NCBI GenBank assembly: GCA_008923285.1
Contig: WBSG01000005.1
Coordinates: forward strand, 62,001-126,000
Direction: 5' to 3'
Length of the DNA: 64,000 nucleotides
Source: Betaproteobacteria bacterium SCN2
GTDB lineage: Bacteria > Pseudomonadota > Gammaproteobacteria > Burkholderiales > Thiobacillaceae
Of this stretch, positions 5,286 to 36,597 are shown one piece after another. The position numbers were made by a program, and so were the translations under genes. The notes under the pieces were generated by a model. The model was given only the letters and a program-made list of their open reading frames with translations, made no database searches and was not told the origin of the DNA. Numbering within the stretch: the first letter of the stretch is position 1; each line of letters opens with the position of its first letter.

Positions 5286-6584
5286 TTAAGGATACGGGCC
5301 TGCATCGCCCGCCGCCGGCGCCGCAAGCGCCCCGATGCGGGCAACCTTGACCGCCCGATCCTGCGTTTGCACGATTTCGATCGGGATGTTGCCGATTTTA
5401 ACGCTCACGCCGGCTTCTGGAATGTCTTCCAGGTATTCAAGCAGCAGGCCATTGAGCGTTTTGGGCCCGTCCAGGGGAAAGTCCAGTCCCAGCTTGCGGT
5501 TGACATGCCTTACCAGGGCCGAGCCTTCGACCAGCCAGCTGCCGTCTTCCATCTGCCGCAGCCAGCCGGTCTGGGCAGGCGCCTGGGTGGTGAATTCGCC
5601 GACCATTTCCTCCAGCAGATCTTCCATGGTGACCAGCCCCTGCAACTCGCCGTATTCATCCACCACCAGGGCAAGACGCTTCTGGTTCTCCTGAAACTGG
5701 CGCAACTGCTTGAACAGCGGCGTGCCGGCCGGCACGAAATAGGGTTCCTGCAGGATCTCGCGCACGGCCTCGTGGGTGAACTCATCGCTGGCCATGGCAT
5801 GCAATATCCGCCGCACGTGCAGGATGCCGGTGATCCGGTCGAGCGAGTCCTCGTACACCAGCAGACGGGTGTGATGGCTGGTGGCAATCTGCCGGCTGAT
5901 TTTTTCCGGCTCGTCGGCAAGATCGATGGTCTCGATCTGATTGCGCGGCGTCATCACGTCATCTACCGTGATGCTTTCCAGCCCGAGGATGTTGAGGAGG
6001 ATGCGGCGGTGCTCCCTGGGCAACAGCTTGGCCGACTCCAGCACGACGGTGCGCAGTTCCTCCAGTCCGAGCATGTTGCCGCCCTCATCCTGGCGCGGCT
6101 TGATGCGCAGCAGCTTCAGCAGGCCCTGCACGAACAGATTGACGAACCACACCAGCGGATAGGCCAGCCTGAGCAGGGGCGTCAGCACGAAACTCGCCGG
6201 ATAGGCGATCCGTTCCGGATAGGAGGCGCCGATCACCTTGGGCGTCACTTCGCTGAACACGAGAATGAAGAAAGTCAGCAGCGAGGTGGCGGCAAACAGG
6301 ATGATCTCGCCCTGGCCGAACAGGCGGATGGCGATGAGGGTGGACAACGTGGCCGCCCCCGTGTTGACCAGATTGTTGCCCAGCAGGATCACCCCCAAGA
6401 GCTTGTCGGTCTGACTCAGCAGGGCAAGTGTCAGCCGCGCCCCCCTGAACCCCTGCTCTGCCTGGTGCTTGAGCCGGTAGCGGTTGATGGCCATCATGGC
6501 CGTCTCGCTGGCCGAGAAGAACCCCGAAAGCAGCAACAGGACGGCCAGAATGGAAAACAGCGTGCTTGTCGAGATCGAATCCAA
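5286..6584 (-). CDS. CNNM/CorC-type membrane protein with CBS pair
   Basis: This 432-residue inner-membrane protein belongs to the HlyC/CorC (CNNM) family linked to magnesium and cobalt handling. It has a DUF21 membrane domain in the first 170 residues with the ASETAMMAINRYRLKH signature, then two CBS domains (starting near MTPRNQIETIDL and LVVDEYGELQGLVTMEDLLEE) and a C-terminal CorC_HlyC domain. It resembles E. coli YfjD/CorB. The best start is TTG at 6584, since no in-frame ATG precedes the first membrane helix. It follows the ypjD-like gene in the same direction; transport substrate cannot be read from sequence. Confidence 0.85.
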   Translation of the reverse strand: MDSISTSTLFSILAVLLLLSGFFSASETAMMAINRYRLKHQAEQGFRGARLTLALLSQTDKLLGVILLGNNLVNTGAATLSTLIAIRLFGQGEIILFAATSLLTFFILVFSEVTPKVIGASYPERIAYPASFVLTPLLRLAYPLVWFVNLFVQGLLKLLRIKPRQDEGGNMLGLEELRTVVLESAKLLPREHRRILLNILGLESITVDDVMTPRNQIETIDLADEPEKISRQIATSHHTRLLVYEDSLDRITGILHVRRILHAMASDEFTHEAVREILQEPYFVPAGTPLFKQLRQFQENQKRLALVVDEYGELQGLVTMEDLLEEMVGEFTTQAPAQTGWLRQMEDGSWLVEGSALVRHVNRKLGLDFPLDGPKTLNGLLLEYLEDIPEAGVSVKIGNIPIEIVQTQDRAVKVARIGALAAPAAGDAGPYP

Positions 6585-6617
6585 AGGAAATGCGCCCTAT
6601 CTTCGGCCGGAAACGAA

Positions 6618-7421
6618 TCAGCGCTGCAGCAGGATTTCGAGCACGAACTTGCTGCCCACGTAGGCCAGCAGCAGCATCACGAAACCGATGATGGTCCAGC
6701 GCACGGCCAGCCGCCCGCGCCAGCCCCAGATCGTCCGCCCGGCCAGCAGGGCACCGAAGACCAGCCATGACAGCAGCGCGAAGAAGGTCTTGTGGGTGAG
6801 GCTCATGGCCATGCCGAAGATCTCCTCGGAAAACAGCACGCCGCTGGCCAGGGCCAGGCTGAGCAGGATGAAGCCGGCCCAGATCAGCTTGAACAGCAGC
6901 GACTCCAGCGTCAGCAGCGGCGGCATGCCCTGCATGCTCGCCGCCGCAGCGCCTTTGTGCAGCCTCTTCTCGAACGCCGACATCAAGACCGCCTGCAGCG
7001 CGGCGATGAACAGCAGGCAATAGGCCAGCAGCGACAGCACCAGGTGCACGCGAAAGCCGAAGGTGTGCGAAAAGGGCACGGCACGGGCATCCGGCAAAAC
7101 CAGGGGAAACAGGACACCGACAGCGGCAGCGGCAGCCACCCAGCCCTGAATGCCGGGCAGCGGCACCTTGAGCGCAGTCAGGGCGTAAACCGATACGGAC
7201 AGCCAGGCAATCAGGGAGACGGCGTTGGCGAAGCCCAGATGCACGGCATCCTGCTGAAACACGCTTGCCCCCAGCAGCGCCGCATGGATCACGATGCCAG
7301 CCAGCAGCAGGGCCGAGGCCCACAGCGGGCCGCGCGGCCGCGCAGCGGGCCGCAGGAACTGCCAGGCGGAAACTGCATAGAGCCCCGCGACCAAAAAGGA
7401 TGAGAGCACGAAAACCGGCAT
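6618..7421 (-). CDS. CcsA/YpjD-family inner membrane protein
   Basis: A 267-residue polytopic protein with about eight hydrophobic helices, matching the cytochrome c assembly (CcsA/CcmC-like) fold of E. coli YpjD. The paired histidines expected for this family appear in FSHTFGFRVHLVLSLLAYC and in SLTHKTFFALLSW. It lies just downstream of a divergent intergenic region opposite ffh, a conserved arrangement (ypjD-ffh) in proteobacteria. Some members take part in haem export or cytochrome c maturation, but the YpjD branch has no firmly established role, so no function is assigned. Confidence 0.82.
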   Translation of the reverse strand: MPVFVLSSFLVAGLYAVSAWQFLRPAARPRGPLWASALLLAGIVIHAALLGASVFQQDAVHLGFANAVSLIAWLSVSVYALTALKVPLPGIQGWVAAAAAVGVLFPLVLPDARAVPFSHTFGFRVHLVLSLLAYCLLFIAALQAVLMSAFEKRLHKGAAAASMQGMPPLLTLESLLFKLIWAGFILLSLALASGVLFSEEIFGMAMSLTHKTFFALLSWLVFGALLAGRTIWGWRGRLAVRWTIIGFVMLLLAYVGSKFVLEILLQR

Positions 7422-27843: not shown

Positions 27844-28176
27844 ATGGCGCGAGCGCTGGAAACCGAAGAGATCGAATTGATGGACAAGGAAGACGACATC
27901 GAGCGCGCTTCCCGTGCCATGAAAGCGATGTCGCATCCGCTGCGCCTGAAAATCCTTTGCGTCCTCGGCGACAAGGAAGTCAGCGTCCAGGACATCGTGG
28001 ACCGTGTCGGCACTTCACAAAGCAACATTTCCCAGCACCTTGCCATCCTGCGCGACAAGGGCGTGCTGAAAACCCGCAAGGATGCCAACCGGGTCTACTA
28101 CCGCGTCGGCGACACCCGCACCCTGCGCCTGATCGGCATGATGCGCGAAGTGTTCTGCGGCTTCATTACCAAGTAA
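27844..28176 (+). CDS. ArsR-family repressor of SqrR/BigR persulfide-sensor type
   Basis: A 110-residue winged-helix repressor with the ArsR core PLRLKILCVLGDKEVSVQDI, the recognition helix SQSNISQHLAILRDKG and the wing TRKDANRVYYRVG. It has exactly two cysteines, Cys39 in helix 2 and Cys105 near the C-terminus, 66 residues apart, the spacing of the dithiol pair in Rhodobacter SqrR (41/107) and Xylella BigR (42/108). The usual metal-ligand CxC motifs are absent. It probably senses persulfide by forming a tetrasulfide bridge and controls the adjacent efflux genes. The function is inferred from residues and neighbours. Confidence 0.85.
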   Translation: MARALETEEIELMDKEDDIERASRAMKAMSHPLRLKILCVLGDKEVSVQDIVDRVGTSQSNISQHLAILRDKGVLKTRKDANRVYYRVGDTRTLRLIGMMREVFCGFITK

Positions 28177-28197
28177 CTTACCCCCCTCGATCAACAG

Positions 28198-28222
28198 AAG
28201 CCCGGTCCGCCCGGGCTTTTTT
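28198..28222 (+). terminator. Rho-independent terminator after the ArsR-family gene
   Basis: AAGCCCGG at 28198-28205 pairs with CCGGGCTT at 28211-28218 around a five-base loop, followed by a run of T. The regulator thus forms its own transcript, separate from the RND genes, which need their own promoter. Confidence 0.85.
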
Positions 28223-28255
28223 GCTGTAAAGTTGGCCTAAAGACTTGAAAAATAA

Positions 28256-28281
28256 AGTCTATTAGCATATTCTAATGGACT
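28256..28281 (+). promoter_or_regulatory. Candidate operator upstream of the RND genes
   Basis: AGTCTATTAG (28256-28265) and CTAATGGACT (28272-28281) are inverted repeats matching at 9 of 10 positions with a six-base spacer. The right arm ends four bases before the AGGAGG ribosome site of the membrane-fusion gene. A second shorter pair, AGACTT/AAGTCT, lies at 28241-28260. The symmetry and place suit a dimeric winged-helix repressor. Confidence 0.6.
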
Positions 28282-28298
28282 ATTCAGGAGGCTCCGCC

Positions 28299-29330
28299 AT
28301 GCGTTTTATAGTCCTGTCCGTCGTATTCGCGACCTGTCTGCCCGCCTGGGCCGCCCTGCCCTTCCCGACCGCCAAGGTCGCCTATCAGAACATCGACAAG
28401 TCCTATTCGACCGAGGCCACCGTCGAAGCCGTACGCCAATCCACCGTCTCGGCCCAGGTTTCCGGCCGCATCACTGCGGTCAATTTCGATGTGGGCGATG
28501 CCGTCAAGGCGGGCCAGGTCATCGTGCGCATCGATCCCTCCGAACTCAGCCAGGCCGTCGCCGGCAGCCGCGCCCAGGTCGCACAGGCCGAGGCCCAGCT
28601 TGCCAACGCCAAGGCCAACTACGATCGCCAGGTGCAGTTGTTCCAGCAGAAATTCATCTCCCAGGCCGCACTCGACCGCGCCACCTCCGAATACCGCGCG
28701 GCCCAGGCCGCCGCCCAGGCCGCAAAGGCCGGCGTGGGTCAAACTTCGGCGGTGCGCTCCTACACCACCCTCACCGCACCGTTCTCCGGCGTGGTCATGG
28801 CACGTCATGTGGAGGTCGGCGAAATGGCCACGCCCGGCAAGCCGCTGATGACCGGCTTCGATCCCGATGACCTGCGCGTGGTCGCCAACATTCCGCAATA
28901 TAAGCTGGCCGAGATCCAGAAATCGCCCAAGGCCTCGGTCGAGATCCCCTCGCTCGACAAGTGGATCGAAGCTCGGGGCATTACCGTTCTGCCTTCCGCC
29001 GATACCGCCACCCACACCATCAAGGTGCGCATCGACCTGCCGGAAGAACTGGGCAGCGGCGTGATCCCCGGCATCTACGCCCGCGCCTATTTCGCCACCG
29101 GCGAGGCGCGCAAGCTGGTGATTCCCGGTTCCGCCGTGCTGCGTCGTTCGGAAATCACCGGCGTCTACGTGGTCGACGCCAAGAATCGCGTGAGCCTGCG
29201 CCAGGTACGCCTCGGCGATCCCACGCCCAGGGGCGAGGTCGAAGTGCTGGCCGGACTCAATCCGGGCGAAGTCATCGCGCTCGACCCGGTCAAGGCCGGC
29301 ATCTACGCCAAGAGCAGAACCAGCAAATAA
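28299..29330 (+). CDS. RND efflux periplasmic adaptor (membrane fusion protein)
   Basis: This 343-residue protein links the inner-membrane RND pump to an outer-membrane channel. It has a signal peptide (MRFIVLSVVFATCLPAWA), a lipoyl/barrel-sandwich region (VSAQVSGRITAVNFDVGDAVKAGQ), a helical hairpin (about residues 85-145) and the beta-barrel. The ATG at 28299 is chosen because AGGAGG lies seven bases upstream. The permease starts 24 bases after it, so the two are one unit. No outer-membrane factor gene is next to them, so a shared TolC-like channel would be needed. Confidence 0.93.
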   Translation: MRFIVLSVVFATCLPAWAALPFPTAKVAYQNIDKSYSTEATVEAVRQSTVSAQVSGRITAVNFDVGDAVKAGQVIVRIDPSELSQAVAGSRAQVAQAEAQLANAKANYDRQVQLFQQKFISQAALDRATSEYRAAQAAAQAAKAGVGQTSAVRSYTTLTAPFSGVVMARHVEVGEMATPGKPLMTGFDPDDLRVVANIPQYKLAEIQKSPKASVEIPSLDKWIEARGITVLPSADTATHTIKVRIDLPEELGSGVIPGIYARAYFATGEARKLVIPGSAVLRRSEITGVYVVDAKNRVSLRQVRLGDPTPRGEVEVLAGLNPGEVIALDPVKAGIYAKSRTSK

Positions 29331-29354
29331 CAAGCCACGGGGACGGGCACGCAC

Positions 29355-32300
29355 ATGGGCATTTCAGGCCGCATCGCCAGATTCTTCCTGCATTCGCAGT
29401 TGACGCCGCTGATCGCGCTGATGGCGGCGATTCTTGGACTGTTCGCCATCTCGGTGACGCCGCGCGAGGAAGAACCGCAGATCAACGTCACCATGGCCAA
29501 CGTGTTCATCCCCTTCGCCGGCGCGTCCGCCAGGGACGTCGAACAGCTGGTGGCAACACCCGCCGAGCAGGTGCTGTCGCAAATCGCCGGCATCGAGCAC
29601 GTGTATTCCGTGTCGAAGCCCGGCATGGCCATCCTCACCGTGCAGTATGAAGTGGGCGAAGACCGCACCCAGGCGCTGGTGCGGCTGTATGACACCATCC
29701 AGGCCAACCGCGACTGGGTCTCGCCCAATCTCGGCGTGGGCGAACCCATCATCAAGCCGACCGGCATCGACGATGTGCCCATCGTCACGCTCACGCTGTG
29801 GACGCATGACGAAACGCGCGGCGCCTACGAATTGCAGCAGATCGCGCATGCCGCCGAAATCGAACTCAAGCGCATCGCCGGCACGCGCGAGGTCTACACC
29901 ATCGGCGGACCGGACAACGTCGTACGGGTCATCATGGACCCCGAACGCATGGCCGCCTTCCGCGTCTCCGCGCAGGACATCCGTGATGCGCTGCAGGTGT
30001 CCAACGCCTCGCAGCCTTCCGGCACGCTGACTTCCGACAACCAGGAAATCCTGGTCCAGACCGGCACCTTCCTCACCGGCCCGGCCGATGTGAAACAGCT
30101 GGTGGCCGGCGTATACCAGGGACGTCCTGTGTTCCTCAGCGACGTTGCCAACGTCGTCGCCGGCCCCGACCAGCCTTCGAATTACGTGTGGTTCGGCGCG
30201 GGCCAGGGCGGCCAGCACGCCAAGCTCGCCGGACAGGGCTTCCCTGCCGTCACCTTGGCGGTGTCCAAGAAACCGGGCGAGAACGCGGTCGACATCGCGG
30301 AAAAGGTCATCGAGCGCATGGAGTCACTGAAGGGCGCCATTGTCCCCGAAGGGGTAGAAGTCAGCATCACCCGCGACTATGGCGCCACCGCCGACGACAA
30401 GGCGAAGAAGCTCATCCAGAAGCTGATTTTCGCCACCGCCTCGGTGGTGCTGCTGGTGCTGTGGGCGCTGGGCCGCCGCGAAGCCGTCATCGTCGGCGCC
30501 GCCGTGCTGCTCACGCTCGCCGCCACGCTGTTCGCGTCATGGGCCTGGGGCTTCACGCTCAATCGCGTATCGCTGTTCGCGCTGATCTTCTCCATCGGCA
30601 TCCTCGTCGACGACGCCATCGTCGTGGTGGAGAACATCCACCGCCGCACCGCGCTCGACCACGACGGCATGGAAGCCATCATCCCGCGCGCGGTGGACGA
30701 AGTCGGCGGCCCCACCATCCTCGCCACCCTCACCGTGATCGCGGCGCTCTTGCCGATGGCCTTCGTCACCGGCCTCATGGGCCCGTACATGAGCCCGATC
30801 CCGATCAATGCCTCGATCGGCATGCTGATCTCTCTCGCCATCGCCTTCATCGTCACCCCCTGGCTCGCCTTCAAGCTGCTGAAGAACCTCCAGCATCATG
30901 AGGCCGGCAACGACAAGCTGCTCGGCCTGTTCCGCAAGTGGCTCACGCCCTATCTCGGCGGCGATGCCGGCAAGGCCATGCGCAGGAAGCTGTGGCTCGG
31001 CATTGGCATCGCAATCCTCCTCTCCGTGTCGCTTGCCGCAGTCAAGCTGGTGATCCTGAAAATGCTGCCTTTCGACAACAAGTCGGAATTCCAGGTAGTG
31101 GTCGACATGCCGGTCGGCACGCCGCTGGAGAAGACCGCGCAGGTGCTGCAGGAAATGGGCCAGGTGCTGAGCGAAGTCGAGGAAGTGGCCGACTACCAGG
31201 CCTACGCCGGCAACGCCTCGCCCATCAACTTCAACGGCCTGGTGCGCCAGTACTACCTGCGCAACGGCCCGGAAATCGGCGACATCCAGGTCAACCTGGT
31301 CGACAAGCACGCGCGCGACCGCAAGAGCCACGAAATCGCCCAGGCTGTGCGCCCGGCGCTGGAAGAAGTCGCCAAGCGCCACGGCGCCGACGTCAAGGTG
31401 GTGGAAGTGCCGCCCGGACCACCGGTGATGTCGCCCATCGTCGCTGAGGTCTACGGCCCGGACTACGAAGCGCAGATGCAGGTCGCCAAGGAAGTGCGCG
31501 CGGTGTTCGAGAAGACCGAAGGCATCGTCGCCATCGACGACAGCATCGAGGACGACGCCCAGCGCTTCGTCCTGAAGGTGCTGCAGAACAAGGCGGCGCT
31601 CGCTGGCGTCTCGCAGAAGGACATCGTCGCCGTCATGAAGATGGGCCTCTCGGGCGAGGATGTCACGCCCATCCATGGCGGCAGTTCCAAGTACGAGGTC
31701 CCGGTGCGCATCACACTGGCGCCCGAGCGCCAGAACAGCCTGAACGAACTGCTGAAACTCAACGTGCGCGGTTCGAACGGCAACCTCGTGCCCTTGTCCG
31801 AGCTGGTCGAGGTGGTGCCCTCGGAGCGCGAGAAGACCATCTATCACAAGAACCTGCTGCCGGTGGTATTCGTCATGGGCGACATGGGCGGCGAACTCGA
31901 CTCGCCGCTGTATGGCCTGTTCGGCATGCGCGGCGAGTTGTCCGGCCGCGAACTGAAACAAGGCGGCACGCTGGGCGAATACTTCATCAGGCAGCCTGCC
32001 GACCCCTACGCCGGCTTCAGCATCAAATGGGACGGCGAGTGGCAGGTCACTTACGAAACCTTCCGCGACATGGGCATCGCCTACGCTGTCGGACTGATCC
32101 TCATCTACCTGCTGGTGGTGGCGCAGTTTGGCTCCTACCTCACGCCGCTGATCATCATGGCGCCGATCCCGCTCACCATCATCGGTGTCATGCCCGGCCA
32201 TGCGCTGCTGGGTGCGCAGTTCACCGCCACTTCGATGATCGGCATGATCGCGCTGGCCGGCATCATCGTGCGTAACTCTATCCTGCTGGTGGACTTCGTC

Positions 32301-32549
32301 AATCAGCAGGTTGCGGAAGGCATGGATTTCCAGGAGGCGGTGATCCAGGCCGGCGCCACCCGCGCCAAGCCCATCGTGCTGACCGGTGTCGCCGCCATGA
32401 TGGGGGCCTTCTTCATCCTCGACGACCCGATTTTCTCGGGCCTCGCGGTATCGCTGATTTTCGGCATTTTCGTATCCACCCTGCTCACCCTGGTGGTGAT
32501 TCCCGTGTTGTACTACGCCGCGAACTTCCGCAAGTTCGCAAAAACCTAA
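29355..32549 (+). CDS. RND family efflux permease
   Basis: A 1064-residue inner-membrane pump of the AcrB/MexB superfamily. It has 12 predicted helices, two large periplasmic loops and the fourth-helix SIGILVDDAIVVVENIHRR, whose Asp pair carries protons. It opens with SGRIARFFLHSQLTPLIALMAAILGLFAI. The sequence lacks typical heavy-metal efflux signatures, and the substrate is unknown. Position behind the two-cysteine repressor suggests export of a reactive sulfur or thiol-linked compound. It is followed by the DUF2892 gene after 10 bases. Confidence 0.95.
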   Translation: MGISGRIARFFLHSQLTPLIALMAAILGLFAISVTPREEEPQINVTMANVFIPFAGASARDVEQLVATPAEQVLSQIAGIEHVYSVSKPGMAILTVQYEVGEDRTQALVRLYDTIQANRDWVSPNLGVGEPIIKPTGIDDVPIVTLTLWTHDETRGAYELQQIAHAAEIELKRIAGTREVYTIGGPDNVVRVIMDPERMAAFRVSAQDIRDALQVSNASQPSGTLTSDNQEILVQTGTFLTGPADVKQLVAGVYQGRPVFLSDVANVVAGPDQPSNYVWFGAGQGGQHAKLAGQGFPAVTLAVSKKPGENAVDIAEKVIERMESLKGAIVPEGVEVSITRDYGATADDKAKKLIQKLIFATASVVLLVLWALGRREAVIVGAAVLLTLAATLFASWAWGFTLNRVSLFALIFSIGILVDDAIVVVENIHRRTALDHDGMEAIIPRAVDEVGGPTILATLTVIAALLPMAFVTGLMGPYMSPIPINASIGMLISLAIAFIVTPWLAFKLLKNLQHHEAGNDKLLGLFRKWLTPYLGGDAGKAMRRKLWLGIGIAILLSVSLAAVKLVILKMLPFDNKSEFQVVVDMPVGTPLEKTAQVLQEMGQVLSEVEEVADYQAYAGNASPINFNGLVRQYYLRNGPEIGDIQVNLVDKHARDRKSHEIAQAVRPALEEVAKRHGADVKVVEVPPGPPVMSPIVAEVYGPDYEAQMQVAKEVRAVFEKTEGIVAIDDSIEDDAQRFVLKVLQNKAALAGVSQKDIVAVMKMGLSGEDVTPIHGGSSKYEVPVRITLAPERQNSLNELLKLNVRGSNGNLVPLSELVEVVPSEREKTIYHKNLLPVVFVMGDMGGELDSPLYGLFGMRGELSGRELKQGGTLGEYFIRQPADPYAGFSIKWDGEWQVTYETFRDMGIAYAVGLILIYLLVVAQFGSYLTPLIIMAPIPLTIIGVMPGHALLGAQFTATSMIGMIALAGIIVRNSILLVDFVNQQVAEGMDFQEAVIQAGATRAKPIVLTGVAAMMGAFFILDDPIFSGLAVSLIFGIFVSTLLTLVVIPVLYYAANFRKFAKT

Positions 32550-32559
32550 GGAGCTCTGC

Positions 32560-32784
32560 ATGACCGTCGAACGCATCGTCCGCATCGTTGCCGGATTTTT
32601 CATCCTGTTGTCGCTGGCCCTGGCGCATTTCGCCGGCACCGCCGACCTGTCCCAGCTTTCCTGGCTGTGGTTCACCGCCTTCGTCGGCCTCAACCTGTTC
32701 CAGTCCGGCTTCACCCGCTTCTGCCCGCTCGAGCTCATGCTGAAGAAGGCCGGCGTCAAGGAAGGCGGCAGCTGCTGCTCCTGA
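32560..32784 (+). CDS. DUF2892 small inner-membrane protein
   Basis: A 74-residue protein with two membrane helices (residues 6-24 and 33-50) and the DUF2892 motif FTRFCPLELMLKKAG. The same domain forms the membrane part of E. coli YgaP, a rhodanese that handles persulfide sulfur. The C-terminus is GGSCCS, with Cys72 and Cys73 added to Cys55. A good AAGGAG ribosome site precedes it, and it closes the regulator-RND locus. Its role is unknown; a link to sulfane-sulfur chemistry is suggested by the family and context. Confidence 0.85.
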   Translation: MTVERIVRIVAGFFILLSLALAHFAGTADLSQLSWLWFTAFVGLNLFQSGFTRFCPLELMLKKAGVKEGGSCCS

Positions 32785-32862: not shown

Positions 32863-33273
32863 ATGGAATTCGTTCAAGACAATCTTCTGCTCGTCATCGC
32901 CGCCGGCGCCAGCGGCGCCATGCTGCTGTGGTCCTTTTTCGGCAACCGTGTTTCCGGCATCAGCGAGGTCAACACCATGGAAGCGACCCGGCTGATGAAC
33001 GAGGAGGCGCTGCTGCTGGACGTGCGCGACGATAACGAATGGGCGGCAGGCCGCCTGCCCAATGCCAGGCACATCCGCCTCGCCGAGTTGTCCAAGCGCC
33101 TGTCCGAACTGGAGAAATACAAGGACAAGCCTATCGTGGTCTACTGCCGCTCCGGCCACCGCTCTGCCCGCGCCTGTGCGTTGCTGAAGAAATCCGGCTT
33201 TGCCAACCCCAACAATCTCGTCGGCGGGATCATGGCCTGGCAGCAGGCCAACCTTCCCGTCACCCGCAAGTAG
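32863..33273 (+). CDS. Membrane-anchored rhodanese
   Basis: A 136-residue single-domain rhodanese, or sulfurtransferase, anchored by an N-terminal helix (NLLLVIAAGASGAMLLWSFF). The active-site loop CRSGHRS carries Cys95, which accepts sulfane sulfur; the second conserved motif is LLLDVRDDNEWAAGRLPNARHI. It precedes grxC by eight bases, an arrangement common in betaproteobacteria upstream of secB. The nearby SqrR-like locus makes a role in sulfane-sulfur handling plausible. Confidence 0.92.
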   Translation: MEFVQDNLLLVIAAGASGAMLLWSFFGNRVSGISEVNTMEATRLMNEEALLLDVRDDNEWAAGRLPNARHIRLAELSKRLSELEKYKDKPIVVYCRSGHRSARACALLKKSGFANPNNLVGGIMAWQQANLPVTRK

Positions 33274-33281
33274 GTCCCGAT

Positions 33282-33542
33282 ATGCAAAAAGTCGTCATGT
33301 ACTGCACCGCCGTGTGCCCCTATTGTGTTGCCGCCGAGCGCCTGCTCCAATCCAGGGGCGTGGACGCCATCGAGAAAATCCGCGTCGACGTGGAACCCCA
33401 CCTGCGCGAGGAAATGATGAACAAGACCGGCCGTCGCACCGTGCCGCAGATCTACATCGGCGAAACCCACGTCGGCGGCTTCGACGACCTGTCCGCCCTG
33501 GACAAGGCCGGCGGCCTCATGCCGCTGCTGGACGCCGCTTGA
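33282..33542 (+). CDS. grxC: Glutaredoxin 3
   Basis: GrxC reduces disulfides and protein-glutathione mixed disulfides using glutathione. The 86-residue protein has the dithiol active site CPYC near residue 14 and the GSH-binding RTVPQIYIGETHVGGFDDL. The ATG at 33282 gives the normal length; longer in-frame starts lie inside the rhodanese gene. It is part of rhodanese-grxC, followed by trxC after a hairpin. Confidence 0.95.
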   Translation: MQKVVMYCTAVCPYCVAAERLLQSRGVDAIEKIRVDVEPHLREEMMNKTGRRTVPQIYIGETHVGGFDDLSALDKAGGLMPLLDAA

Positions 33543-33594: not shown

Positions 33595-34017
33595 ATGGAA
33601 CTCGTCTGCCCCGACTGCGGCGCAGTCAATCGCGTACCCGACGATCGCCTGGGCGAACGTCCCAAATGCGGCAAATGCGGCGCCGATCTGCTGCCCGGCA
33701 AGCCCGTCGACCTGAACGGCGCCACTTTCCAGAAATTCGTCAGCCGCTCCGGTCTGCCGGTTGTAGTGGATTTCTGGGCCCCGTGGTGCGGGCCGTGCAA
33801 GATGTTCGCCCCCGTTTTCAGCCAGGCGGCGGCCGAACTCAATGCCCGCTACCGCTTCGCCAAGGTGAATACCGAAGCGGAGCAGGGGCTGGCGGCGCAA
33901 CATGGCATCCGCAGCATCCCCACCCTGGCCATTTTCAGGAACGGCCAGGAAATCACGCGGGTGTCGGGGGCGCTCGACGCGGCCAATCTCAAAAGATGGC
34001 TCGCGCAAAGCGCCTGA
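33595..34017 (+). CDS. trxC: Thioredoxin 2 (zinc-binding) TrxC
   Basis: TrxC is a cytoplasmic thioredoxin with an extra N-terminal zinc domain. The 140-residue protein has Cys5, Cys8, Cys25 and Cys28 in CPDCG and CGKCG, then the thioredoxin fold with WCGPC and the cis-proline SIPTLAIF. E. coli trxC is controlled by OxyR; no OxyR site is evident here. The perfect inverted repeat at 33563-33588 overlaps its ribosome site and probably affects expression. Confidence 0.94.
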   Translation: MELVCPDCGAVNRVPDDRLGERPKCGKCGADLLPGKPVDLNGATFQKFVSRSGLPVVVDFWAPWCGPCKMFAPVFSQAAAELNARYRFAKVNTEAEQGLAAQHGIRSIPTLAIFRNGQEITRVSGALDAANLKRWLAQSA

Positions 34018-35008: not shown

Positions 35009-36001
35009 ATGAAAATCGCCGTGCTCGGCGCCGGCGCCTGGGGCAGCGCGCTGGCCGTGCATTTCGCCGCGCGCCACGACGTTACCCTGTGGACCCGCAG
35101 CGAAGCACACGCCCAGGCCATGGCCGGCGCGCGCGAAAATGCGCGCTACCTGCCCGGGGTGCCCCTTCCCGCAAACCTGCGTCTCAGCCACCGCCTCGAT
35201 GAAGCGACACAGGGCGCCGACCTGCTGCTGGTCGCCGTGCCGAGCGGCGGCCTGCGCAGCCTGCTCGGCTTGCTGGCGGAACAAGCCATCAACTGCCCGC
35301 TGATCTGGGTCTGCAAGGGCTTCGAGGCCGGCACCGGCAAACTGCCGCACGAAATCGTCGCGGAACTGCTGCCCGGCATCCCCGGCGGCGTGCTGTCGGG
35401 CCCCAGCTTCGCCATCGAAGTCGCGAAAGGCCTGCCCACCGCGATGACCCTGGCCTCGCACCACGCCGAAATCACGCATGTCATCGCCCCGCGCCTGCAC
35501 GGCGGCACCCTGCGCATCTACACCTCGCGTGACGTGGTGGGCATCGAACTGGGCGGCGCGATCAAGAACGTCATCGCCATTGCCGCCGGCATTTCCGACG
35601 GCCTGGGCTTCGGCCACAACGCACGCGCCGCGCTGATCACCCGCAGCCTCGCCGAAATTACCCGCCTCGGCCTGACTCTGGGCGGCCACATGGAAACCTT
35701 CATGGGCCTCTCCGGCATGGGCGACCTCATCCTCACCTGCACCGGCGACCTGTCGCGCAACCGCCAGGTCGGCCTGCATCTCGCCAGGGGCGAATCGCTG
35801 CAGGACATCATCAAAAGCCTCGGCCACGTCGCCGAAGGCGTCACCACCGCGCCGGAAGTGCTGCGCCTGGCCGAGCGCCACGGCGTCGACATGCCCATCA
35901 CCCAGGCGGTGAACCGCGTGCTGTACGAGCAGCTTTCCCCGCGCCGGGCGGTGGAAGAACTGCTGCACCGCAACCAGAAAGCGGAAGACCCGCGCCAGTG
36001 A
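35009..36001 (+). CDS. gpsA: Glycerol-3-phosphate dehydrogenase [NAD(P)+]
   Basis: GpsA makes sn-glycerol-3-phosphate from dihydroxyacetone phosphate for phospholipid synthesis, supplying PlsY. The 330-residue protein begins MKIAVLGAGAWGSALA with the Rossmann fold, followed by VCKGFEAGTGKLPHE, LSGPSFAIEVAKGLP, and NVIAIAAGISDGLGFGHNARAALITR. An in-frame ATG at 34988 adds seven residues (MAATGPR); 35009 is preferred because it gives the family N-terminus. Neither start has a strong Shine-Dalgarno. Confidence 0.94.
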   Translation: MKIAVLGAGAWGSALAVHFAARHDVTLWTRSEAHAQAMAGARENARYLPGVPLPANLRLSHRLDEATQGADLLLVAVPSGGLRSLLGLLAEQAINCPLIWVCKGFEAGTGKLPHEIVAELLPGIPGGVLSGPSFAIEVAKGLPTAMTLASHHAEITHVIAPRLHGGTLRIYTSRDVVGIELGGAIKNVIAIAAGISDGLGFGHNARAALITRSLAEITRLGLTLGGHMETFMGLSGMGDLILTCTGDLSRNRQVGLHLARGESLQDIIKSLGHVAEGVTTAPEVLRLAERHGVDMPITQAVNRVLYEQLSPRRAVEELLHRNQKAEDPRQ

Positions 36002-36597
36002 TCGACGCGGCAGTACAGCAGCTCGCGGAAAAGGGATGGTGCGCCCTGCGCGGATTTCTTTCCGGTGAACTCGTGCAGCGCCTGGCCGAGGATGCGCGCA
36101 GGCTCCACGCAACCGGCCAGATGCGTCCCGCCGCCACCGGCCAGGGCGCGCAGCGCGAAGTGCGCGCCGGCCTGCGCGACGACGCCATCGCCTGGCTGGA
36201 GGAAAGTCCCGCCAGTCCCGCCCAGCTGGAATACCTTTCACGCATGGAAGCACTGCGGCTGGCGGCGAACCGCGAACTGCAGCTCGGCCTGTTCGACCTG
36301 GAAACGCACTTCGCCCGCTATCCGGCCGGTGCACGCTACCAGAAGCACCTCGACACCTTCCAGCAGGACGGGCGGCGCACCTTGTCGGTGATCTGTTATC
36401 TGAATGCCGGCTGGCAGGAAAGCGACGGCGGGCAGCTCCGGATCTATCTCGACGAGGACAACGCCAGCCGCCACGCTGACATCCTGCCCGAAGGCGGCAC
36501 CCTCGCCTGCTTTCTCAGCCACCGCTTTCCGCACGAAGTGCTGCCCGCAAGCCGGGAGCGGCTGAGCCTCACCGGCTGGTTCAGGCGCCGCGCCTGA
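35998..36597 (+). CDS. 2-oxoglutarate/Fe(II)-dependent oxygenase
   Basis: A 199-residue prolyl-4-hydroxylase-like oxygenase. The iron-binding HxD is seen in KHLDTFQ, the distal His in SHRFPHEVLP and the 2-oxoglutarate-binding Arg follows (SRERLSLTGWFR). The domain has the RYPAGARYQKHLDTF and LSVICYLNAGW strands of the P4Hc family. The start is GTG at 35998, overlapping the gpsA stop by four bases. The substrate is unknown; related bacterial enzymes hydroxylate proline in elongation factor Tu or other proteins. Confidence 0.88.
   Translation: MIDAAVQQLAEKGWCALRGFLSGELVQRLAEDARRLHATGQMRPAATGQGAQREVRAGLRDDAIAWLEESPASPAQLEYLSRMEALRLAANRELQLGLFDLETHFARYPAGARYQKHLDTFQQDGRRTLSVICYLNAGWQESDGGQLRIYLDEDNASRHADILPEGGTLACFLSHRFPHEVLPASRERLSLTGWFRRRA

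Follow-up and report, generated by a model that had tools for sequence, protein, structure and literature searches.

This analysis concerns a repressor of the ArsR family and a neighbouring efflux pump of the resistance-nodulation-division (RND) family, encoded in a stretch of 64,000 nucleotides (the window) from Betaproteobacteria bacterium SCN2 (GenBank assembly GCA_008923285.1, contig WBSG01000005.1, positions 62,001 to 126,000 of the forward strand); all positions below are window positions and all genes of the locus are on the plus strand. The arsR gene (27844-28176, PF01022, E-value 3e-12) encodes a protein of 110 amino acids and is followed by genes for an RND periplasmic adaptor, or membrane fusion protein (MFP; 28299-29330), an RND permease (29355-32549, PF00873, E-value 6e-149) and a YgaP-like transmembrane protein (DUF2892, here YgaP_TM; 32560-32784, PF11127, E-value 8e-16) with a conserved cysteine, Cys55. 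The initial annotation had placed these four genes between 27844 and 32784, and all four are there. The listed open reading frame (ORF) of the adaptor begins at 28275; the likelier start is the ATG at 28299, which is preceded by AGGAGG (28286-28291). Downstream of YgaP_TM follow genes for a rhodanese-domain protein (32863-33273, domain search), a glutaredoxin (33282-33542, PF00462), a thioredoxin-2-like protein (33595-34017, domain search) and SecB.

The gaps between the adaptor and permease genes (24 nucleotides) and between the permease and YgaP_TM genes (10 nucleotides) are so short that the three genes probably form one transcription unit. The arsR gene probably belongs to a different unit, because a terminator-like hairpin with a T run lies between it and the pump genes (28198-28222, plus strand, palindrome scan); a scan for consensus terminators returned a shorter stem at 28204-28217 (0.3 expected in shuffled sequences). 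The predicted promoter of the pump genes, on the same strand, consists of a -35 box TTGAAA (28245-28250; 0.1 expected in shuffles) situated 17 nucleotides before a -10 box TATTCT (28268-28273). Between the hairpin and the adaptor gene there is a palindrome of 26 base pairs (28256-28281) with 22 of 26 positions matching: its core, ATTAGCATATTCTAAT (28261-28276, no strand), has the form ATTAG-N6-CTAAT, contains the predicted -10 box and is our candidate operator.

The repressor has exactly two cysteines, just as initially described, one within helix alpha2 (C39) and one where alpha5 ends (C105). Their spacing of 66 residues, for which the initial annotation had cited SqrR (41/107) and BigR (42/108), is the same in HlyU (C38/C104) and in sHdrR (C50/C116, PMC12423496). 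Both cysteines are invariant in 26 aligned regulators (23 of the type found in the window and three BigR-like). The closest relatives by sequence in the Protein Data Bank (PDB) are BigR, HlyU, YgaV and SqrR. An AlphaFold model (predicted local distance difference test score 86.5) had HlyU (E-value 9e-9), NolR, SqrR, BigR and YgaV as its top Foldseek matches; in this model C39 is within helix 32-41 and C105 directly follows helix 91-104. Known sensors of reactive sulfur species carry their cysteine pair in alpha2 and alpha5 (PMC10509353). Thus sequence, predicted structure and cysteine positions support the proposed assignment to the SqrR/BigR/YgaV/HlyU kind. The score against the NCBIfam equivalog family for BigR (NF040642) is 77.4 bits and below the curated cut-off of 155, which indicates a member of the broad class of reactive-sulfur sensors rather than BigR itself. 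We consider reactive sulfur to be the probable signal. As to autoregulation by the same motif, matches in the region upstream of arsR mostly have two to three mismatches, near the level of shuffled sequences. Two Thiocapsa genomes (G088, G089) and genome G117 have a second putative arsR of the two-cysteine type, 57-59% identical, besides the close orthologue.

For the analysis of gene neighbourhoods we used the best 80 of 590 permease matches from a contig scan as pump loci and, as controls, 40 other RND pumps from a set of 61 genomes; neighbours were tallied by tblastn within 4 kb of the permease. Of the 61 genomes, 20 have a permease with an identity of 60% or more, counting partial permeases. 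The initial annotation had made its case dependent on a conserved neighbourhood, and such a neighbourhood exists: the order arsR-MFP-RND-YgaP_TM recurs across genera. When relatedness between the genomes is ignored, the pump loci differ from the controls in the presence of any ArsR (28/80 versus 0/40, Fisher p 2e-6), of YgaP_TM (53/80 versus 0/40, p 4e-14) and of a sulfide:quinone reductase (SQR; 15/80 versus 0/40, p 0.002). The YgaP_TM gene follows the pump at a distance of at most 200 nucleotides in 48 of the 80 loci and is upstream in five; Cys55 is retained in 52 of the 53 matches, and the remaining match is truncated. The SQR gene, identified by a score of 551 bits against PDB 3SZ0, lies between the adaptor and permease genes in eight loci, directly before the permease in one (where the contig does not include the adaptor), downstream in five and upstream in one. 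Fourteen of these 15 loci are independent of the search seeds, because only L058 (the same as L034) had supplied the seeds for SQR, persulfide dioxygenase (PDO), TauE and the BigR-like regulator. With a more permissive threshold, an SQR-like match appears in a single control locus (L135) too. Dioxygenase-like proteins of the metallo-beta-lactamase (MBL) type are near the pump in 3/80 loci versus 1/40 controls; the one of L034 scores 311 bits against PDB 4YSK, which we take to be a persulfide dioxygenase, and 346 bits against the dioxygenase half of the NCBIfam family Blh, whose cut-off for the full length is 625.

The 28 loci with an ArsR comprise 15 with the type of the window, four with a BigR-like two-cysteine protein and 11 with another ArsR (L094 and L118 have both a BigR-like and another one). 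This other, divergent ArsR stands before the pump (L094, L106, L111, L112, L114 at 6433-6840, L118, L127, L128, L129, L130 and L132); it has no Cys39 (asparagine in ten, serine in L106), carries a CxxxC pair in alpha5 and is not accompanied by ATTAG-N6-CTAAT. Judged by its sequence, it represents another kind of dithiol regulator for this pump. The reverse arrangement, a different pump beside the same regulator, is found in five genomes of the same family (L048-L052): an outer membrane factor (OMF)-MFP-RND set with 39% identity is situated between the same ArsR (82-89% identical in the four genomes where it was called) and YgaP_TM, with the outer-membrane gene confirmed by PF02321 for L049. 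Here, the pump was exchanged while the regulator and the small membrane protein stayed, and in three of the five loci the operator site is found before the outer-membrane gene.

The candidate operator is conserved among related pump loci. Seven of the 80 pump loci, with no adaptor or with less than 200 nucleotides before it, and five of the 40 controls, with no adaptor match, were left out of this count. With up to one mismatch allowed, 38 of the 73 usable pump loci carry the site ahead of the adaptor gene, where dinucleotide shuffles predict 0.7, and none of the 35 control regions before other RND adaptors does (0.2 predicted). The corresponding Fisher p is 4e-9; like the other p-values, this one overstates independence, because the genomes are related. 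The distribution follows the regulator: the site is found in 14 of 15 loci with an adjacent arsR of the window type, in 0 of 11 with the CxxxC type and in 24 of the 47 other loci; L058 and L104, which have a BigR-like regulator, are without it (two and five mismatches). This site is the likely operator of the pump genes.

If regulator and site belong together, they are expected to co-occur even when they are not neighbours. We therefore queried the genomes of all 58 usable pump loci without an adjacent window-type arsR for that gene. It is encoded in 22 of the 24 genomes with zero or one mismatch in the site, in 8 of 10 with two mismatches and in 4 of 24 with at least three mismatches (p = 1e-5 with the cut at one mismatch; 5e-8 with the cut at two, a cut picked after the data had been seen, as the two-mismatch class was separated only once the first results were known). 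Several of the two-mismatch sites are a symmetric variant, ATAAG-N6-CTTAT. Seventeen of the unlinked arsR loci were inspected: both cysteines are kept in all of them (by eye), a rhodanese gene stands alongside in 16 and YgaP_TM in three. Among named isolates, Denitromonas iodatirespirans and Thiocapsa marina combine the pump with a one-mismatch site and an unlinked regulator, and in the former the SQR gene stands between those for the adaptor and the permease. In Thauera propionica and Aromatoleum toluvorans, pump and regulator occur together with a two-mismatch site. Since site and regulator co-occur without linkage, a chance neighbourhood is not a sufficient explanation. The connection between regulator and pump, which the initial annotation had proposed, is now backed by the conserved operator, by this co-occurrence and by the SQR neighbours, and we regard it as very probable that the pump is under the control of this repressor.

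At loci L186-L202 the gene order is gpm/envC-arsR-(YgaP_TM)-rhodanese-glutaredoxin-secB, an arrangement that looks ancestral in beta- and gammaproteobacteria, and YgaP_TM together with the rhodanese resembles a split YgaP.

In related genomes the same site also precedes other genes. Eighteen genomes, most of them picked for holding this arsR and a pump site, were scanned for exact sites; the scan gave 78 sites, 15 of them at pumps, and the reversed pattern gave 16. Of the remaining 63, 55 were examined and eight left out. Fifteen of the 55 are at most 105 nucleotides upstream of genes from the seed families (six rhodanese, four stand-alone YgaP_TM, three DUF302 and two thioredoxin), compared with 1.0% of positions in background loci (binomial p 6e-18, with some sites coming from one genome). 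The seed families were fixed beforehand and the test was framed after the first 15 sites, with three matches; the later 40 sites gave 12. Sites before TolC, PCMT and peroxiredoxin genes were kept out of the 15, because these genes were labelled with seeds from the same loci. Post hoc, exact operators were seen before a TolC-like gene (L206, L224, L245), before a PCMT gene (L211, L227, L231, L233; behind the one in L211 come rhodanese and TolC-like ORFs) and shortly upstream of peroxiredoxin-like genes (L215, tested as AhpC-TSA, and L236). In two genomes (L213, L225) an exact operator precedes a similar small protein with an ELDYGCCPQC motif. There is no outer-membrane channel gene within 28299-32784; a TolC-like gene is found on contig C6 of the same genome, and the TolC-like genes behind the site are candidates for the outer-membrane partner of the pump. 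The SCN2 genome itself has two exact sites: one is at the pump and the other, between convergent ORFs resembling dnaE and acylphosphatase by eye, was set aside as a chance match. A site with one mismatch is present 24 nucleotides before rhd-tusA-dsrE2. Elsewhere in the window, 35998-36597 encodes a 2OG-Fe(II) oxygenase (PF13640) with no relation to the pump or its regulator.

We propose that the repressor, which is akin to SqrR, BigR, YgaV and HlyU, responds to reactive sulfur and governs a pump for a sulfur species, and we assign this reading a probability of roughly 0.6, a figure that leans on its regulatory half. Both the sensing of reactive sulfur by ArsR and the sulfur substrate of the pump are what we infer; the latter from SQR in the operons of relatives, from the YgaP_TM partner and from the genes that share the operator. 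Taken by itself, the export of a sulfur compound has somewhat less than an even chance. A still more specific version, dedicated efflux of sulfane sulfur, is offered tentatively: SQR may deliver the sulfur it produces to an RND-TolC pump, which would carry zero-valent sulfur out of the cell under the control of a repressor that senses reactive sulfur, and in relatives the ATTAG-N6-CTAAT sites of this repressor may also serve rhd-tusA-dsrE2, YgaP-TM, DUF302, thioredoxin and TolC genes.

Mechanistically, the reduced ArsR dimer would bind ATTAG-N6-CTAAT over the -10 box, as position and conservation of the site suggest, and shut the MFP-RND-YgaP_TM unit. Persulfide or polysulfide would then bridge C39 and C105, as may be expected from the family, release the repressor from the DNA and induce the pump; this sequence of repression, release and induction is based on the geometry of the site and on reports on HlyU, SoxR and sHdrR. 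The pump, with TolC as its likely outer-membrane partner, would pick up a sulfane-sulfur species (polysulfide, a sulfur chain or an organic persulfide, in some relatives perhaps the product of the operon-encoded SQR) in the membrane or periplasm and export it from the cell, and YgaP-TM and the rhodaneses would deal with sulfane sulfur inside the cell.

Several observations weigh against the proposed sulfur pump under this repressor. In addition to the shared ancestry of the genomes, the site with up to one mismatch is missing in 35 of 73 pump loci, among them L060 with an adjacent arsR and two of the five exchanged-pump loci, again with arsR adjacent. Two genomes have the site and no such arsR, and the four arsR-positive genomes among the 24 with at least three mismatches have the regulator without the site. 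No ArsR is found within 4 kb in 52 of the 80 pump loci and no SQR in 65, although some of these loci end at a contig edge, and the best SQR homologue of the SCN2 genome (47%) is unlinked to the pump. Other neighbours discriminate little or not at all: rhodanese (16/80 versus 2/40), thioredoxin (12/80 versus 4/40) and outer-membrane genes (5/80 versus 4/40). The evidence from the SCN2 genome beyond the pump is thin, because sites with up to one mismatch number 13 versus 10 for the reversed-pattern control; of the only two exact sites the second is the one between convergent ORFs, and the pcm-rhodanese-tolC operon of this genome has no site (best match with four mismatches). Finally, the permease alignment contains no invariant cysteine, and RND pumps are often promiscuous.

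These last two points lead to the explanation that survives best beside ours: the regulatory part holds, but the cargo is a different one, such as hydrophobic compounds that damage membranes, quinone-like products or xenobiotics whose levels go up along with sulfur stress, and reactive sulfur is the signal only. Multidrug export is the usual role of RND pumps with this shape, MexK and CmeB, both drug pumps, are among the best matches with solved structures, and the scarcity of SQR near most of the pump loci fits as well. However, unrelated cargo does not readily account for an SQR gene between adaptor and permease in eight loci and beside the pump in seven, with none in 40 controls, nor for YgaP_TM so regularly following the pump, nor for the same operator before sulfur-transfer genes. 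On balance we hold a different cargo to be unlikely, but to be taken seriously.

It is far less probable that arsR serves only the adjoining YgaP_TM-rhodanese genes, with the pump as an accidental insertion at this spot. The rhodanese beside the unlinked arsR, with no pump, in 16 of 17 genomes and the seemingly ancestral gene order from gpm/envC to secB would be in agreement with an insertion, but the operator sits at the pump promoter and persists when pump and arsR are separated, and exchanged pumps at the same spot carry it in three of five cases. A metal, metalloid or organotin as the signal, expelled by the pump, would fit the many metal sensors of the ArsR family, the metal-exporting group among the RND pumps and the title of a 2008 paper by Gueune et al., which reportedly calls E. 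coli ygaVP tributyltin-inducible, but we reject the heavy-metal reading and give the wider idea very little credence: with only two cysteines the repressor cannot have the CxC metal-binding motif of alpha3, searches by sequence and by fold place SmtB, CadC and CzrA behind the reactive-sulfur sensors, the match of the permease to the CusA/CzcA family TIGR00914 reaches 239 bits (cut-off 701), and the recurring neighbours are sulfur and redox genes.

With SqrR (Rhodobacter), BigR (Xylella, Acinetobacter), YgaV (E. coli) and HlyU (Vibrio) the repressor shares the fold, the cysteine pair in alpha2 and alpha5 with its spacing of 66 residues and neighbours related to sulfur; a difference is its probable target, an RND pump. 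The site at the pump promoter differs from the SqrR operator ATTC-N8-GAAT (PMC9774250) and from the HlyU site TAATTCAGACTAAATTA (PMC4330345). In E. coli ygaVP, too, a two-cysteine ArsR goes with a rhodanese and a membrane domain of the YgaP type; YgaP of E. coli is presumably a fusion of both, whereas here rhodanese and YgaP_TM are separate ORFs, with the RND pump situated between arsR and these two. Multidrug pumps of the HAE type, which include MexK and CmeB, have the same ACR_tran permease and HlyD-type adaptor, but the permease described here stays under the curated threshold of each of the 15 NCBIfam families that it matched, and the pump has no outer-membrane gene in its operon and is distinguished by the YgaP_TM partner and the association with SQR. 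One point of the initial annotation is not borne out as worded: it had stated that RND pumps are not among the known targets of SqrR/BigR, but a survey from 2025 lists RND efflux pumps, together with sqr, pdo, rhodanese and TauE, among the targets of sulfane-sulfur-responsive ArsR regulators inferred from neighbourhood; in its accessible part, it gives no operator or regulon for the pumps (PMC12423496). In the open-licence literature searched, no paper turned up that describes the operator, the unlinked regulon, the pump exchange or an RND operon containing SQR.

How bacteria export reactive or zero-valent sulfur is poorly understood. A pump that comes with a sensor and a 16-bp operator makes the question experimentally tractable, and the locus is also a warning against annotating such pumps simply as drug pumps. 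If the reading of dedicated sulfane-sulfur efflux is true, beta- and gammaproteobacteria would have here a route by which reactive sulfur leaves the cell.

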